From Dinochytrium kinnereticum (taxonomy: Eukaryota > Chytridiomycota > Chytridiomycetes > Chytridiales > Chytridiaceae): 64,000 nucleotides of DNA. Shown here piece after piece: positions 9,857-18,843 of this stretch; the stretch's first letter is position 1, and the number at the start of each line of letters is the position of its first letter. Position numbers and translations under genes: made by a program. Below the pieces are notes generated by a model that saw nothing but the letters and a program-made list of their open reading frames with translations, was not told the DNA's origin and did not search any database. Location: assembly GCA_027604005.1 (NCBI GenBank), contig JADGJT010000052.1:1-64000 (forward strand), read 5' to 3'.

Positions 9857-11511
9857 TCATTTTTTCAACGGAATGGGGAACCGCTTGATGACAATGTTCC
9901 GCTGATTTCTCTGCGATGGGAGACCAAACCAAAGCCCCCATTAAAACGCAACCAATCGAAGGGAGAAAACATAAATTAATGGAAAGACAACAAACGAGAA
10001 AAAAAGATGATTTTGAATGAGAGTTTGAAAATGGAAAACGATTCAAACAGGGGGGGAAAGAGAGAGAAAAAAGAGATGAAAATTATCCAAATAACAAACC
10101 TTGTAAAATTCAATCAAAAGTCTAGCAAACTTCTCTGGTTCCTCTTCGTGAACAGAGTGGCCGCATTCGGGGTATACCACCATTTGGAATTTTCCTGTGA
10201 TTCATTATTATGTTTGGTTTGGATGATGTGTCCTTTGTAAAGGGAGATCTTTCAATTTTAAAAGAGGCATACCTTGCATTTGGGCAATGGTAAGCGGCTT
10301 GTCTAATCGATCCGTTCCTGTCCAGCAAAGAATGAATTTAACAAAGCAACAATATTAATTGAGATACTTTGAGAAAAGCGACGGCATGAGATATTGATTG
10401 CAGATTCGTGCAAAAGGGACTCATGGAATGTTATCGATAAGACACGTACCTGCCAAGACGAGCAAACGCCCCGCCTTCACCGACAAAAACTTTTCAGAGA
10501 GGTTGGTGAACCATTCTACATGCAAAGAGTTTTGGGGAATATTTTTTTTTGTGATGAGTAAATGAGAAGAGGAAAACAAACAGCACAAGGTATTATTACC
10601 ATTCCAAAACCGCTCAGTCTTTGTAAGGTCCATTCTCCAAACATAGGCGTCGTCCACCTTTTTAAGTTGAGGGGGGATGAGGAGAGGCGCGATCTTGGCG
10701 TTGCGGATGTAATGCGATTTGATGCTATCATTTTTTTGTTTTTTGTTCAGAGGCTTTTGATGGATGACACTTACCTCCAAGAGATGCAATCTTCAATTGT
10801 TTTAAAGGACATAGGACGAGACCTTATGACGGATCGCATGTATTGAAGAGACTCCAGTGCCGTTCCTATATGGCTTAACATCAGCAAAAATAATTACAGC
10901 AAACATGTTTCCAAACCTTCCACAACATCAACAGCGACCACTCCTGCAATATTTTTGATCATTCCAGGGGTAGTTGCAGCCTCCACAACCACCGCGGCTC
11001 CCAAGCTAGAATATAAAAAAAAAGCTCCGTTAGCATGCAGTATAAGAAACTAACCTCTCCAAGAAAAAAAAGGGGGGCTGGCGCGGTCATAAGTACCTGT
11101 GCCCTACTAAAACAACCTCCGGATTGGTATCCCCAGAAACGTTTTTAATTATCTCCGCTAAATCGTTGGAAAGTTTCTTGAGAGAGAAGTCGGTTTCATC
11201 TGAGGATTCCGACCGACCTGCAAAGGCGAGGAGAAAAACAAAACAAAAAAAACATCAGGTACAGGTGGTGGTCTGGTTATCAGACCGTGGCCCCTGCAAT
11301 CATACATCACAACCGTGCATTCGAGTTCTTTGAGGAGGTGCGTCGCGGCAAGGTGCCATGTTTCTGCAGTGTGGCCACCACCATGATGGAAGACTATCAT
11401 GGGGTTGGGCGAGGCCCCTCCCTTGTAAACGCTGAGAATGCAACGCAACGCATCAGTGACTGCAACCTCCCCACTTTGAAACAAATTCAAGTGATTACTT
11501 GAAGACATCAT
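9857..11511 (-). CDS. PPME1: Protein phosphatase methylesterase 1 (PP2A demethylase), nine exons
   Basis: Alpha/beta-hydrolase that removes the C-terminal methyl ester from the PP2A catalytic subunit. Exons: 11511-11286, 11217-11097, 11005-10917, 10865-10775, 10724-10600, 10515-10450, 10317-10273, 10194-10100, 9901-9857, all phase-consistent, 300 residues. It has the oxyanion-side motif IVFHHGGGHTAETW, VMYDCRGHGRSE, the nucleophile elbow VLVGHSLGAA (Ser at about 116; GHSMGG in animals), the acid after GVVAVDVVEG, and the catalytic-His region PECGHSVHEEEPEKFA. The PPME1-specific stretch SIKSHYIRNAKIAPLLIPPQ and VWRMDLTKTERFWNEWF is present. It is shorter than animal homologues because it lacks the acidic insert and has a short N-terminus. 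The last exon encodes only 14 residues, ending RFPIPLKK. Confidence 0.9.
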
Positions 11512-11566
11512 CGTTCACTTTGATCTTTATTGGCTGCATGTCGAGCTCCATTGATGTGGTATGTGT

Positions 11567-12240
11567 TCACTTGCGCTTGAAAAGTCCCAAAAGTTTGCCC
11601 CCTCCCAACTTCTTCCCCTTCGCCCCTGCCTTTGTCAATCCACCCTTCGAGTCAAGTATCCACTCCAGTTGTCGCTTGTTGAAGGCACCTCTTCTCTTGG
11701 ATCGGATCATCTCCACAGCATCCAGCCTCTCAATGCCTGCATCAATCATGGCGATGGCGACGAGGATGGGAGCTCGCCCAATGCCAGAGACGCAGTGAAC
11801 GGCAACGGCGGATGATGCAGATCCTGCGGGGAGGGATGATATGAAGGTTCTGTAGTTTTCCACAAGCTCCGCAGCAGGCACGGTCCCTGTGAGGGTGAGG
11901 TGGATTGTTAAACAGTGTGGTTTTGAAGCTGTGGAGCGAGTTTTTGTACAGTGCTCTCCACCCGATGCTTTTCTTTTTATTTTTAATTACCATCTTCAAA
12001 GGCAAGATCGTCCTTGACGATGATGCCAGCCTGCGACAGTGGGCTTGGGTCGTAGACATCTGGGTCGCAGAGACGGATCAGCACCTTAACGTTTTGCTCC
12101 TGGAAGACGGGGAGGTAATCGCCCAGGAGGGACTCATTGGTAGGGCAGTCGCAGACCAGGAATCGGATGGGGAGGGATGGGTGTTCGATGAGGGAGTATT
12201 GATGCGAGTAGATGGAGTGCGGTTGCTTCCCTCGACTCAT
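11567..12240 (-). CDS. PTP4A: PRL-type (PTP4A) dual-specificity protein tyrosine phosphatase
   Basis: Two exons, 12240-11991 and 11886-11567, 189 residues. The phosphatase signature HCVSGIGRAP (Cys about 115, Arg about 121) is followed by LVAIAMIDAGIERLDAVEMI and RSKRRGAFNKRQLEW, diagnostic of PRL rather than other DSPs. The N-terminal RFLVCDCPTNESLL and LIRLCDPDVYDPSPL also fit; the acid loop reads LAFEDG where animal PRLs have WPFDD. Unlike animal PRLs it ends in a basic tail KKLGGGKLLGLFKRK with no CAAX prenylation box. The start ATG lies only 26 nt after the predicted stop of the gene upstream on the same strand, and an alternative splice would join the two in frame. Confidence 0.88.
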
Positions 12241-12266
12241 GGGATCGAGTGAGGTGAAAACTTGTG

Positions 12267-14731
12267 TTACGGCTTTGTCGGCCTCTTTGACCCCAGGCCA
12301 ACCTGTGAGCAGTTGGAAGTCGTGTTAACCCGAGAACAATAAATAAATTCCTCACCAAAACATCAATGTCGATAGAGGATGTAGAAGGACTGACTCCCGC
12401 AACACGCACAACAGCACCCGGAGATAGTCGATCCTTTCGCATGAAAAGGTTGTCAACGCTCCCATATATGCCTCGGGTTTTCTTAATCTCCTTCTCTGGC
12501 GCTCCCATGGCCGGGAGAGCAGGCGTTGAGGCCGATATTGCTCTTCTCGTGGGTCTAGGGAAAGCAAGTGAGGTTTGGGGTGCCTTATCAAGGACATGGA
12601 GGCTTGGAGAGCGCGTGTTGGTGGCTTTTAAAAGTTGGGTTTGACTGTCCCTACGGTCTGTGACCCACTCGTCGCTCCTTCTGTTTTCAAAAGGTTTGGC
12701 TGGAAGAGGGGTATCTGAGAATCGTCTTCCGACATTTCTTCCAGCGTGTGAAGACGAAGCTATATCCATAACAACATCATCATTACCAGTATCTTCACGT
12801 TCCATCGCCTTCGCGGTATTGATGTAGCTATTTGATTGGTTCAGCGCAACCTTTGACATCGTGGAGTCATTCGTGAAGCTCGCGGGGACAATGAAAAGCG
12901 ATGTCGCAGATTCGCCAATGCTCAGCAGATCTGAGACGTCCTGCTGTGACAATGTAGGTTGAACGTTTCGCGTGAGAGCATCCTGTAATGCGATGGAAGC
13001 AGAAAGCTTATGGTGTCTTTTCATAGCTGGTTGTTCACCAAATCCAATGAACGAGTCAATATCCAGTAAGTCGTAAACCGCAGACATTGGGGGAAACTCG
13101 TTTAAGTCCTCCACTGAGTCGAGCCCCTCAGCGCCAGTCCTTGCAGCAGAGATTCTAAGTGTCGTTGGCATAATTACCACGTCGGAGCTCGCGCTTGACA
13201 ACAGGGCGCTTGGATCTTGCGATGAAGGAAAAGGAAAGAACAGCGCTGGAAGACTTAAGTTGTGAAGCATGAGCTTGCTTGAACCAGTTCTCTGAGCTAT
13301 CGAAAGCGATGACGAGGCTGCTGCGACGCCAAAGAGGTCAGTGCTTATTCCTCGACGACAAGATTCGGCTTGCCGACCTTGCCGGATTTGTGCTTGGTTT
13401 CGGTCTCTGAAAGTAGCCGGCTCAGAATCCATAACGAACTCTCGACCTGCTGTATCCTTTGCCGTTAGCTTCGCCTCTTCTTTTTCTTTCATTTCGCGGC
13501 GGGGAGAAGGCTTCTCTGATGCTTTCTGAGGTATGGAATGACTTTGAATACGGATTTCTTGAATTTCGATTGCTAAATCCGGTGCTAGTGGAGTCTCAAA
13601 TTGAACACGCCTATCCGACTCAGGCCCTGATGGTGAATCCTTAACCCCAATCTGCATCAGCCCTTCTATGTCACTCGCCGTCCATCCTTCCCGCGTCCAT
13701 GGTCTGTACATGAATCCTGTCTCCGGAAGCCCGTACTCTCGACCAGCTAGGTCTACGTGAGACCAGTTATACGTCACCCAGTGATTAGACCTGCTCAGAT
13801 TTGCACTGCTGGAGAAGGCAATATCAACCTTTTCTTTCTCATTTGCAGTCCTTACAGGGGCAGAGAATTCATCTGCAAGACCCAAAAGACTGTCCACATC
13901 AAAAGATGAAGGATGATCAATGGCTTCTCCAAGAGCCATTGGAACTAACAATGCGTCTCTTGCCATTCCAAAAGGAAGGTCCAAATCGCTTCTTGTTCTG
14001 GTTCGGAGATGTGGAGCTGATTCTGAGGCACGTTGTAATGGAGGGGAAGTGATTGGGTGTTGGTCAATGAGGAATTCGTCAATGTCTCGAGTGGATTCGG
14101 AGAGGAGAAAAACGCCTGCAATCGCATCACCAGGACTTGAAACGTCAGAGCTCCAAGCTTCTCTCTGCCTTGCAAATTCAGAATCCATGAATGAGAATCT
14201 CTTTTTTGATTGTGCTCCACTCTTGGGGCTCATGTTGGCATTGGCTCTCAATAGGCCTGAGATTCCTGACAGAGAGTTGAGACGCCGTCGTCTGATGTGA
14301 GATCCATCCGATACCGGCCGCTGACGTTGACTCGAGCCATTCACATCTACTTGATCCGCATTTGTCGAGCCGTTAATGTCAGAAACAGCAATGTTGTCGG
14401 CGCTCTTCAATAGATCGTCCACGTCAATGCTATGACTGCCAGGTATCGCTCCAGAATACGAAGAATCGCCTGATGAAGAAGGGTGATCTTTTCTGGCAGT
14501 TATCCGATCAGCCCAATCCCCATCGTCCGGAGCGATGGCTCCTGCAGAGTCCCCAATGAATGTGAGGCAGTCAATATCGAGGGCTGCATGGGTCAGAACA
14601 CTTGGGAAGTGTGAGGTTGGGATGGTTTCAAGACTGGGGAGCTTCAACGCAGAGATGGGTGCCATCGAGGACGCAGCCATGCCGCCCACTGCAGCCTGCG
14701 TCGTCTCTCGGTGCAGATGCCGGTTGCTCAT
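12267..14731 (-). CDS. Large disordered protein with repeated D[IV]D-x-L motif, function unknown
   Basis: One long exon (14731-12356, 792 codons) that ends at a GTGAGG donor; with the CACAG acceptor the second exon (12302-12267) adds 11 residues and a stop, about 803 residues in all. I recognise no catalytic domain. The protein is Ser-rich and mostly disordered, with a charged stretch near residues 405-425. A short motif recurs at about residues 51, 101, 214, 277, 352, 556, 596 and 785: an acidic-hydrophobic core such as LDIDCLTFIGD, FDVDSLLGLAD, LDIDSFIGFGE, QQDVSDLLSIGE. The spacing is irregular, as for an array of docking peptides. The start is the first ATG of the open frame, 206 bp from the divergent TTI1 start. 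A second acceptor 20 nt downstream would fuse it to the PRL phosphatase, giving about 995 residues. Confidence 0.7.
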
Positions 14732-14937
14732 GGTCTTCTGCCGTTATGCCACAACTCTGACAAGGAAATCTCAAGTTGGACTTCCCAATCATGGCGCCGT
14801 AACACGGATGCTTTTTGGAGGATGGACTCAAAGGCGTACTCTGCATTTTTCGAACAGGTAGGTTGGTGTGTGCGGACAATGCCGCTTGATGGCGAGCTGC
14901 ACTTGTAATCAATACACCATGCACGCGCTTTATTCTG

Positions 14938-17900
14938 ATGCCTTATCTCTGTTCTCGTTCTCCCAACCAGGCCAAACCGCTGTGTCTTGAACTGACAGAT
15001 TCAGCATGGTGGCCAACGCCTCGAAAACCAGATGACGACCCCATTCTCCGCCTTCGAAAGTTCATCAAAGCCGTGGTCGATGAAAACTCTCACAACCATT
15101 CCTTCCGTACTCAACTCCTTTCAAAGTTCTCCGAATATGTCTGCCTCCCGTTGTTTCTGATACTGCAGTCGCCATCAGCTCACCCTGTTGTTGTCGAAAA
15201 GGCGGTGAATATGCTTGACTACTATTTCAAATCCGCTGGAGGCGGGTTCAAGTTGCCATCGTCAGTTTTTTTGGAAGGTGTTCGAATATTGCCAATGGTC
15301 ATTGCTCATGGCCGAGCAACAACAGATGTCATTCGGCAAAAGGTTGAAAACCCCAACGAAGATTTGAAACTCCTCGGTATCTCGTGCTTGGATGTGCTCG
15401 TAACAAAATATGATGAGATTGATTGCTTTGACTCCAATACTTTTGAGGAAATCGATGATGAAAGGGGATTCAAGGTGATGCTTTCTTATGACTGGAGGGG
15501 CCATGAAGGAGATGATGATATCGATGAAAAACGTCAAGCTCTTTTAACGGCCGATGGAGTCAAGGGCCGAGGGAAGCTTTACGTTGCTCATCTCATTGGG
15601 ATTCTCTTGGAAGTAGCAGAACTGGAGAAGAATAGTCGACTACGATCAGCCGCCTTGCAGACTGTAGCAGATTGGTGCAACTTTCTTGGGGAACGGATTA
15701 TTCTGATGCAGTTCTTGCCGGGCATTGTTTCCTCTCTCACAAAACTTCTGGGTCGAAGTCTTGGGTCTATGGGTGGAGTCTCAGTTGAAGGCGGAAGATT
15801 GCATTCCGCTATTGTTGTACGCGGTTACAGACTATTGACGACAATTATCTGCCGTTGCTTCGCATCTTCAAATGAGTCTTCGATAAGTTATGCCTTCGAC
15901 TCGCCTAGAGAGTCCCTATTGAAGCTCGGAAAGAAAGGATCTTTAGATGATGGTCCAGAAACGAGGCGGAGCCAGAAAATAGACGAAGACAACATCGAAA
16001 AAGTTTTATCTGCACTTCGCATTATGTTCAGACAGTGCTCACATCCCTCGTGGAGAGCAAGAGTCTCTATAATGCGAGCCGCATTTGATATCGCAGTATC
16101 ATGTGCTATACCGTTGCCGTCTGGTGATGAAGCTCAGCTGTCTCGATTTCTCCCGGAGCTTTTGAACTCGATCGTTTTCTGCCTGGATGATCCGCTGCCT
16201 GCAATCCGAGAAGAATGCAAAATATGCCTAAGAACTATTTCGTCTCGGATTGCCAATTCACCTTCATCACATGCATCTTCTCAAAACTCCTCACTTACTA
16301 AGCTCTCCCGATACCTCATAGACTCATTTGAGACTGTTTTGCTTGATTTCGCAAGTTCAATAATGGATGATATTGGCTTGAATGAACAGCAAAAGGTTGG
16401 AGTTATGCAAAAGGCAATCGGCTACATGTTAGTGATAGGGCTTGAAGGCGTTCGGCAAACTATCTACGCGGTATTTGGGAAGTTTGCAGCTGTATTGATG
16501 AGGTCGCTGAAAAAAATGAGGAAAGATTTTGTTTATGTTCTAGGCTCGAATAGCCATGAGATTGAATACGTGAGAGATCAGAAAGTTTCGGAGATTATCT
16601 TAGAAAGAAGTGCTCCTGGGGAAGTGAGATCACGTGCACCCTTGCAGCCTGTCGAGGAGAGTAGCGGGGATTTTTTAGAGGCTCGAACTTACATATCATT
16701 TCGGAGTGAGATCGTTACCCGAGGAATTAAACGAGTTTTACGCTGCCTGGCTTTGATGGGTGATACCGCCTTTATGTTCGACCACCTCCTAGACTACCTT
16801 AGGAGAGCAGAGAGTTTAGACGATAACAGAGAAGAAGCGGAAAGCGCGGAAGCCATTGATTTCTTTTTCGAGGCCGCCTTCTGCCTTAACGAGTTTTGTT
16901 GCGCTCTGTCTTTTAAGGGCTGTGACCCATTTGGCAGTGCTGTAAACAACGACGACCCCGTTGTCGAAGTTCCGAAGGCTATTGATCATTCGAGAAGATC
17001 TGCATTAATAGCTCTGGCGCAATCATACTGTTTGGCGGATGTGAACCATGCTTGGATCCCATCGCCTAATTCCAAGCAAATCGTTTCGAAGGCTGGCAAT
17101 ACAAGTCCAAACGATAACGGCGGGAACGCATTGCTAGGGCAGTATCTTGTTATAGAAGGAATAGGTTTAGTTGCCCTAGCTCTTGCGGCTGATTTCTCGC
17201 CTCTACTGATTGACACGCTTTATTTGATAATGGAAAAGGCTGGTTCTCATCATGAAGTCGTGCGTAGCGCAGCTGTCAGAGCTCTGAGAATAATTGCCTA
17301 TTGTTGTGGTTATAATGCTAACAACTCATCGGAGGATTTAAGTGCTTCAACTCCTACTCCACCAGATACGGTAGAAGCAAAGGCTTTGACATCTCTCGTA
17401 TGCGCCAATATCGACTATCTCGTAAATGAAATCACGTACCGTCTTCACTATCTCCGAGAAAATTCTGCATCTCCGCAGATGTTGGTGGCGTGTCTTCACT
17501 TTGGAGGAACCTCAATCCTGCCATTTTTCAGCGATGCCCTACTGGAGGTATCACAGTCCTTAGACGAGTATCGTTCGGAGAGCAGTCTTGTTTTTGAGCT
17601 CGTACGGGTGTTTGACGAGTTAACAAACGTCATACTTCTCGCTTCAGATAAAGAGCTTGGTCCACCTCAAAATCCTGATGCGCCCGAGTTGCGGAGATTA
17701 CTTAGAGGTGAAGCTGCGTCTTCCTCAAACATGGATGAAAATGATATTCAGAATCAAGATGTTCTGCGATTCTTTGAAAGACGTGCTGAAGAGGATATAG
17801 ACGAGGAGCCCTGGCCTGCGGAGGGCATTTCGTCTCTCAAGCCTTTTTCAGAAAGAGAGCCTATTGCGACTAAAGACGAAATGGAGAATGCGCTACAGGA

Positions 17901-18843
17901 GGAGCCAGAGGAGGAGACAAAGGGTGAGCCTAGCTCGTCAGAGGACGAGCTGACTATACCCCAAAAGCTTTTCCTCGAGCCTGCCCTCGGTATAATTTCA
18001 AAGGCACAATATTTGCTCTACATCGACCATCCACAAATCCGATCTCTGGTCCTTCGAGTTATTTCAAAATCCGTGAAAGCATTCCGAGATCGTTTCCCGA
18101 GTCGTCTGAATCCTATTATTCACAGGCTATGGCCCATTATTCTGAATCGCTTAGCAGATCCTGAGCCTTTCGTCGTCTTGGAAGCATTGAACTTAACTCG
18201 TGCTATAGTTTCTGGAGGGAAGGATTTCATGTCAAAACGTCTTTCCTCTGATTTGATTCCGAAGTGCTTAAACATCCTTCGGGAAGTTGGTAAGGAGTTT
18301 AAGCGAAACTTCAGGCCCGCGTTCAAAAAGTCTTTATGGAAGCAAAATCTAGGGGCAAACATCCTGTCGGAGGGGGGCCCACCCTTTACGTTCGGTAACT
18401 CTTTTTACGTGGCCTTCTTCGAAGTTTTGAAAGTTTCAGTTCAGTCTGGATCTCTACCACGTAGAGACTTAAGAAACTTAAATGATCTTCTTTGGCCCTT
18501 GTTGCAAGATACCCCACCACCAGCATCAACATCTTTTCTGGCGAAGGATAGCAAATTAATGAAGCTTGTTCAAGATCTGGCTCGAGGCATTCTCCTTGAT
18601 ATTGGACGTACAGACCCTAACATTGTGTGGGCATCTTCCGTCGCTGCCAAAGGCATAGCCGTTTTGTCTCCGAATTTCTGCAAGCCCTCAGTTGATTGCG
18701 ACGATATTTTCACAGAGCTTCCAAGCTTGACCATCCCAGCATTTGTTCAAAACGAATTAGAAATGTCGAAGCTGGCGTTGCTGGACAATGAGCACTTCTT
18801 TTTAAAGATAGATTCACTGGTTAGGGGCGCTATGTTGAGCTAA
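14938..18843 (+). CDS. TTI1: TELO2-interacting protein 1 (TTI1), HEAT-repeat protein
   Basis: Component of the TELO2-TTI1-TTI2 cochaperone, which stabilises PIKK kinases (TOR, ATM, ATR, DNA-PK class) with Hsp90. Single exon of 1301 codons. All-helical HEAT composition throughout; family-specific regions include AKPLCLELTD near the start, DSFETVLLDFASSIMDDIG, the central LVCANIDYLVNEITYRLHYL, and C-terminal SRLNPIIHRLWPIILNRLAD followed by PFVVLEALNLTRAIVSGGKD. An acidic linker lies at residues about 950-1000. The first eleven codons overlap a pyrimidine-rich stretch ending CCAACCAG, so the true start may be in an upstream exon joined at AKPLCLEL. It stands out as intronless among multi-exon neighbours. 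It ends 25 nt from the convergent CMS1 stop. Confidence 0.85.
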   Translation: MPYLCSRSPNQAKPLCLELTDSAWWPTPRKPDDDPILRLRKFIKAVVDENSHNHSFRTQLLSKFSEYVCLPLFLILQSPSAHPVVVEKAVNMLDYYFKSAGGGFKLPSSVFLEGVRILPMVIAHGRATTDVIRQKVENPNEDLKLLGISCLDVLVTKYDEIDCFDSNTFEEIDDERGFKVMLSYDWRGHEGDDDIDEKRQALLTADGVKGRGKLYVAHLIGILLEVAELEKNSRLRSAALQTVADWCNFLGERIILMQFLPGIVSSLTKLLGRSLGSMGGVSVEGGRLHSAIVVRGYRLLTTIICRCFASSNESSISYAFDSPRESLLKLGKKGSLDDGPETRRSQKIDEDNIEKVLSALRIMFRQCSHPSWRARVSIMRAAFDIAVSCAIPLPSGDEAQLSRFLPELLNSIVFCLDDPLPAIREECKICLRTISSRIANSPSSHASSQNSSLTKLSRYLIDSFETVLLDFASSIMDDIGLNEQQKVGVMQKAIGYMLVIGLEGVRQTIYAVFGKFAAVLMRSLKKMRKDFVYVLGSNSHEIEYVRDQKVSEIILERSAPGEVRSRAPLQPVEESSGDFLEARTYISFRSEIVTRGIKRVLRCLALMGDTAFMFDHLLDYLRRAESLDDNREEAESAEAIDFFFEAAFCLNEFCCALSFKGCDPFGSAVNNDDPVVEVPKAIDHSRRSALIALAQSYCLADVNHAWIPSPNSKQIVSKAGNTSPNDNGGNALLGQYLVIEGIGLVALALAADFSPLLIDTLYLIMEKAGSHHEVVRSAAVRALRIIAYCCGYNANNSSEDLSASTPTPPDTVEAKALTSLVCANIDYLVNEITYRLHYLRENSASPQMLVACLHFGGTSILPFFSDALLEVSQSLDEYRSESSLVFELVRVFDELTNVILLASDKELGPPQNPDAPELRRLLRGEAASSSNMDENDIQNQDVLRFFERRAEEDIDEEPWPAEGISSLKPFSEREPIATKDEMENALQEEPEEETKGEPSSSEDELTIPQKLFLEPALGIISKAQYLLYIDHPQIRSLVLRVISKSVKAFRDRFPSRLNPIIHRLWPIILNRLADPEPFVVLEALNLTRAIVSGGKDFMSKRLSSDLIPKCLNILREVGKEFKRNFRPAFKKSLWKQNLGANILSEGGPPFTFGNSFYVAFFEVLKVSVQSGSLPRRDLRNLNDLLWPLLQDTPPPASTSFLAKDSKLMKLVQDLARGILLDIGRTDPNIVWASSVAAKGIAVLSPNFCKPSVDCDDIFTELPSLTIPAFVQNELEMSKLALLDNEHFFLKIDSLVRGAMLS

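Follow-up and report, generated by a model that had tools for sequence, protein, structure and literature searches.

The window analyzed here, the first 64,000 nucleotides of contig JADGJT010000052.1 of Dinochytrium kinnereticum, contains on the minus strand at 12267–14731 a gene for a long protein (hereafter the scaffold) with eight spaced copies of one short motif. The frame starts with an ATG at 14731 and consists of exon 1 (14731–12356), an intron (12355–12303), and exon 2 (12302–12267, the last three bases, 12269–12267, being the stop codon TAA), giving a product of 803 residues after splicing. The intron is 53 nt long (GTGAGG...CTCACAG) and of the GT–AG type, and its CTCACAG end recurs in the following gene's intron. 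The boundary of exon 1 at 12356 cuts copy 8 midway, and the initial annotation accordingly had a last copy that seemed truncated; excising 12355–12303 is predicted to yield a complete DIDVLVGLGS, and the predicted spliced C terminus reads ...SSIDIDVLVGLGSKRPTKP, followed by the stop.

The neighboring genes and the public gene model

A protein search identified the scaffold as the NCBI entry HDU67_007912 of D. kinnereticum (Chytridiomycota, Chytridiales). The NCBI model (P0002) has 1280 residues, the first 781 of which are identical with ours. Its intron begins with GTCCTT at 12390, with loss of copy 8, and it continues from the scaffold into a PRL and an alpha/beta hydrolase. The scaffold, PRL, and hydrolase lie in a row on the minus strand of the window (11511–14731), with stop-to-ATG gaps of 26 and 55 bases. 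The PRL, residues 18–160 of which align to PTP4A-type structures (E = 9.9e-31), has its own ATG at 12240, 26 bases past the scaffold stop, and the hydrolase, by eye like a PP2A methylesterase, has its own at 11511. The gene for TTI1 (TELO2-interacting protein 1) lies at 14890–18843 on the plus strand, divergent from the scaffold, with four TTI1 Pfam models above the cut-off.

The canonical splice pair terminates the scaffold ahead of the PRL and does not put the two in one frame. A fusion of the two would require either the GTCCTT donor, at the cost of copy 8, or an acceptor that is purine-rich and sets the exon start at 12282. Given the canonical splice pair and the separate ATGs of the PRL and the hydrolase, the locus most simply reads as three tightly packed separate genes, and a scaffold–PRL fusion appears unlikely from the splice signals. 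The gaps of 26 and 55 bases are nevertheless unusually short and so leave room for a fusion or for a common transcript; overlapping or bicistronic transcripts of the three genes are possible. The case illustrates that a public gene model can mask a feature, as merging three neighbors erased copy 8.

The motif copies and their chance level

The initial annotation had claimed at least eight spaced copies, and all eight are present in the frame 14731–12267 of the minus strand. With the first residue of each range being the invariant Asp, they are copy 1, DIDCLTFIGD (residues 52–61; 14549–14578); copy 2, DVDDLLKSAD (103–112; 14396–14425); copy 3, DIDEFLIDQH (216–225; 14057–14086), with an off-pattern tail; copy 4, DVDSLLGLAD (278–287; 13871–13900); copy 5, DIEGLMQIGV (354–363; 13643–13672); copy 6, DIDSFIGFGE (557–566; 13034–13063); copy 7, DVSDLLSIGE (598–607; 12911–12940); and copy 8, DIDVLVGLGS (788–797; 12288–12370, with the 53-nt intron inside). 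The Asp-to-Asp distances are irregular and range from 41 to 203 residues. All copies share the core D-[IV]-[DES]-x-[LF]-[LIMTV]: counting the Asp as position 1, Asp, I/V at position 2, D/E/S at position 3 (Asp in six copies), and L/F at position 5 occur in 8/8, and position 6 is hydrophobic in seven copies and Thr in one. The tail is variable, its common form being x-[ILF]-[GA]-[DES], with I/L/F at position 8 in six copies, G/A at position 9 in seven, and D/E at position 10 in five. The elements of the ten-residue pattern first proposed are thus real, but its ending [IA][GA][DE] fits only two of the eight copies, and [LIMTV]x[ILF][GA] fits six. The residue preceding the Asp is hydrophobic in five of eight copies (binomial P = 0.032), and Ser or Thr stands three residues N-terminal of it in five of eight, which we take to be a casein-kinase-2-like spacing. 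DLDLPFGMA at residue 249 is among the best motif matches, possibly as a ninth, degenerate copy.

The copies are alike at the protein rather than the DNA level. Over nine residues, pairs of copies have two to six identical amino acids and zero to three identical codons, and the invariant Asp is encoded by GAT in three copies and by GAC in five. As synonymous codons vary between copies, the array is not a recent DNA repeat.

Across 20,000 shuffles, the six-residue core averaged 0.085 matches and its five-residue version D[IV][DES]x[LF] 0.20, each with a maximum of 3, whereas the scaffold has eight of each; both patterns were derived from the copies themselves, and the tests are thus post hoc. 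Equal motif counts in shuffled sequence had been proposed at the outset as a refutation of the array; 0 of 20,000 shuffles reached eight. We also computed a seed statistic that uses no preset pattern, namely the BLOSUM62 score of the best 9-mer and its seven best non-overlapping matches. This test, picked after the array had been seen, gave 152 compared with 123.0 ± 5.8 in shuffles (maximum 147 of 200) and with 120.6 ± 5.2 (maximum 137 of 120 shuffles) when the shuffling was done in blocks of 40.

Elsewhere in the genome, the core had no matches in 97,679 residues (frames of at least 150 aa, six frames, 264 kb), a background sample consisting of the 64-kb window and the first 10 kb of 20 contigs, with all six frames included, coding or not, and the focal frame excluded. 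When the seed statistic was computed for 30 frames of at least 400 aa from the same genome (trimmed to 1000 residues, 25 shuffles each), the focal frame came fifth (z = 4.9). The first was a PEX5-like frame with WxxxF motifs (z = 13.8), and ranks 2–4 were, by eye, Gly-, Cys-, and Pro-rich repeats. The ranking supplies the statistic with a positive control and also with a background of false positives. The control frame (L011 6682–7977, plus strand) contains six WxxxF motifs and matches PEX5 structures in the PDB (E = 7.1e-31), on which its name rests; eight TPR families matched it, all below their cut-offs. Within its genome the array stands out without being unique, as 4 of the 30 frames score higher, and the motif array is real and nonrandom.

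Relatives, disorder, and helical character

Homologue searches with the whole protein (7995 candidates scored, those sharing most words), with the region 256–366 (241 candidates), and with the eight motif windows (565 candidates) each returned the protein's own database entry alone; they rely on shared five-residue words, and a diverged disordered orthologue could escape them. In its own genome (22.4 Mb, 558 contigs), searches found the scaffold locus alone, the motif search recovering just four of the eight known copies and hence being insensitive. At the sensitivity used, the scaffold is an orphan protein. No Pfam family matched it at E up to 1, and there was no DNA-binding domain among the families searched. 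The motif spellings DIDxLL, DVDxLL, DxDxLL, and DIDSLL and the locus tag HDU67_007912 were not found in the literature searched. Two motif peptides gave no PDB match up to E = 10. The only PDB matches of the motif profile up to the same E value were seven troponin C sequences (E = 1 to 2.3), which we took as a short chance likeness, and an EF-hand was rejected.

The scaffold chain is probably disordered. FoldIndex was mixed over its length, not uniformly negative. A single-sequence AlphaFold2 model, built with the unspliced C terminus, had a mean pLDDT of 33.7 and values <50 at 816 of 821 residues, which is weak evidence for disorder as no alignment was used. In this low-confidence model, helices lay over copies 4, 7, and 8 (three of eight), and others lay outside the copies. 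The copies showed no significant helical amphipathicity: at 100 degrees their mean moment was 0.312, that of within-copy permutations 0.267, and 817 of 5000 permutations reached the observed value; a strand-like 170 degrees performed about equally (957 of 5000). Of the positions that define a capped helix like that of DREB2A on RCD1, the copies have the invariant Asp as a putative N-cap (8/8), L/F at N4 (8/8), and, in some, a hydrophobic residue before the Asp, at N' (5/8), although the hydrophobic moment does not single out a helix. From these positions we infer that the copies could become helical upon binding.

Interpretation and comparison with known systems

We consider the scaffold best explained as a long, probably disordered protein with eight copies of one docking motif, D-[IV]-[DES]-x-[LF]-Phi, and assign this reading a probability of roughly 0.55. 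Each copy would fold on binding into a helix of one to two turns, with the invariant Asp as its N-cap, so that its Ile/Val, its Leu/Phe, and one more hydrophobic residue would face a groove in a partner domain. Spread along a flexible chain, eight such weak sites could then provide avidity or gather several partner molecules. Docking is the presumed function of the array, and the eight copies presumably share a single partner. Arrays of short docking motifs usually point to an important partner, and our leading guess for it is a helical transcription-coregulator hub. The initial annotation had also read the copies as multivalent docking peptides within disorder; the nonchance count, the irregular spacing, the lack of a Pfam match at E values up to 1, and a single-sequence fold model that shows no confident structure are consistent with this, the model being weak evidence for the disorder and FoldIndex mixed. 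Should the motif be real, its eight natural variants within a single chain would make a ready binding series for identifying the partner. To our knowledge, disordered chytrid proteins have been little explored. It would be a long shot to see in the array an undescribed docking-motif class (none was found in the literature searched), used eight times in a scaffold so far seen only in this chytrid, the last copy being built across a splice junction and splice choice toggling between a free form with eight hooks and a PRL-fused form with seven.

A narrower form of the docking array, possible but doubtful, takes each copy as an acid-capped PhiXXPhiPhi activation-type helix for a helical hub (Sin3 PAH, TAF4, Mediator, or TFIIS-N-type) and the protein as a co-activator, co-repressor, or elongation scaffold. 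The pattern D-Phi-XX-Phi-[Phi/T] fits all eight copies (8 found versus a shuffle mean of 1.34, with 0 of 3000 reaching 8), and a narrower PhiXXPhiPhi form is found 11 times compared with 5.48 in shuffles (2.1% of 2000). Generic PhiXXPhiPhi fits seven of the copies, but protein-wide it is at shuffle level (14 versus 13.97). The Sin3-SID form [LIV]xx[LM]Lx[AGIL][AG], loosened after the copies had been seen, fits copies 4 and 7 (2 found versus a shuffle mean of 0.06; at least 2 in about 0.1% of 2000 shuffles), and RRRR at residues 147–150 could be a nuclear signal. The Phi-D-x-x-x-L spacing of DREB2A, as given in the sections consulted of PMC6908617, matches copies 1, 2, 4, 6, and 8. Against this, the consensus forms for RST, TAFH, and PAH ligands, taken from the consulted sections of PMC6908617 and PMC7948954, matched the scaffold rarely: [ED]x(1,2)[^RK][YF]x(1,4)[^RK][DE]L for RST and its expanded form, DPhiPhiXXPhiPhi for TAF4-TAFH, PAH1 type I, and the strict Sin3 PAH2 SID PhiZZPhiPhiXAAXXPhi had no matches; ETO-TAFH had two, one of them in copy 8, at a shuffle mean of 1.80; PAH1 type II had one, outside the copies; and PAH2 with small residues allowed had one, in copy 2. 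The scaffold has no DNA-binding or other Pfam domain of its own. PAH and TFIIS-N domains are present in the genome yet are housekeeping and therefore do not discriminate. Genome searches for TAFH and KIX domains returned nothing, negatives that carry no weight. A search of the genome for an RST domain gave nothing convincing; the best match (E = 0.067, below the cut-off) was on contig 249, not near the TAF4 gene, which is on contig 319, and was treated as chance.

We think it unlikely that the array lacks a docking function and is either left over from an ancient duplication within the protein or produced by the composition of a chain rich in Ser, Asp, and Leu. Three of the four frames that outscore it look like plain compositional repeats, which speaks for such an origin, but composition by itself fails to yield the array in the shuffle and seed tests. 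The flanks of the copies show no conserved column and the synonymous codons differ, so that any duplication must be old and have retained only the motif. The phosphatase or adaptor scaffold beside or fused to the PRL, suggested in the initial annotation, found no support, as the PRL has its own ATG and canonical splicing ends the scaffold first; the link to the PRL is most likely mere neighborhood. A phosphatase scaffold, be it one fused to or working with the adjoining PRL or a recruiter of PP2A-B56 through LxxIxE, is accordingly a poor prospect in our estimate. The PRL begins just 26 nt past the stop, the NCBI model fuses the proteins, a B56 gene is present in the genome, and LLSIGE in copy 7 matches LxxIxE, as do four of the eight copies once a terminal Asp and a Phe anchor are permitted; however, a fusion depends on a weak splice site, either donor or acceptor, strict LxxIxE fits one of eight copies, and protein-wide the motif is no more frequent than in shuffles (strict 1 versus 1.33, relaxed 6 versus 4.28). 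A membrane-traffic motif, either an acidic dileucine or a clathrin box, is highly improbable. [DE]xxxL[LIM] fits copies 2, 4, 5, and 7 and is found five times in the scaffold compared with a shuffle mean of 1.31 (0.95% of 2000 shuffles reach 5), but the strict clathrin box has a single match, LLDID, overlapping copy 6 in a different register, and DxxLL, NPF, and DPF/DPW are absent from the scaffold. Common patterns for clathrin box, B56, SIM, NES, LIR, TOS, DAD, RVxF, and FFAT each fit at most four of eight copies, and none of the strict motif classes tried covers more than a minority.

Known systems resemble the docking array in different respects. The WxxxF repeats of PEX5 are a docking array, and like the scaffold, PEX5 has spaced copies of one short motif (WxxxF/Y) outside a folded domain; it differs in its aromatic motif and in the TPR domain that follows, whereas the scaffold has another motif and no recognized domain. 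Of Mad1-type SIDs for Sin3 PAH2, copy 2 has the spacing with small residues and a different loosened form accommodates copies 4 and 7, but the strict consensus has no match and five of the eight copies are outside both loosened forms. The RCD1-interacting motif of DREB2A presumably starts with FDVDELL, a string not found in the literature searched. According to the consulted sections of PMC6908617, its helix on the RST hub of RCD1 is N-capped by Asp260, with Phe259 and Leu264 forming a hydrophobic staple; its likeness to the copies lies in this spacing of hydrophobic N', Asp N-cap, and Leu N4. DREB2A is, however, a plant transcription factor, and the RST consensus fits no scaffold copy. IWS1, in the portion consulted of PMC13175633, has several motifs within its disordered part, and JIL-1 carries DFxGFDE (PMC6877644, likewise consulted in part). 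Copy 6, with FIGF, is like these FxGF and TIM motifs (LEDGF and TFIIS N-terminal domains), and Phi-x-G-Phi-[GA], loosened after the copies had been seen, is found five times in the scaffold, a count reached by 1 of 3000 shuffles (mean 0.42), with copies 4, 6, and 8 holding three of these matches; strict FxGF is found in copy 6 only, and the Gly of this form is absent from five of the eight copies. PhiXXPhiPhi is described as a generic motif of transcription factor:coregulator contacts in the consulted part of a review (PMC7948954), and contacts of this type between disordered regulators and helical hubs appear in the parts consulted of PMC9127584 and PMC10796322 and, for Zas1 of fission yeast, of PMC6028546. 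Such generic contacts would be the closest published mechanism, and acid-capped helices docking on coregulator hubs the closest analogues of the eight copies.
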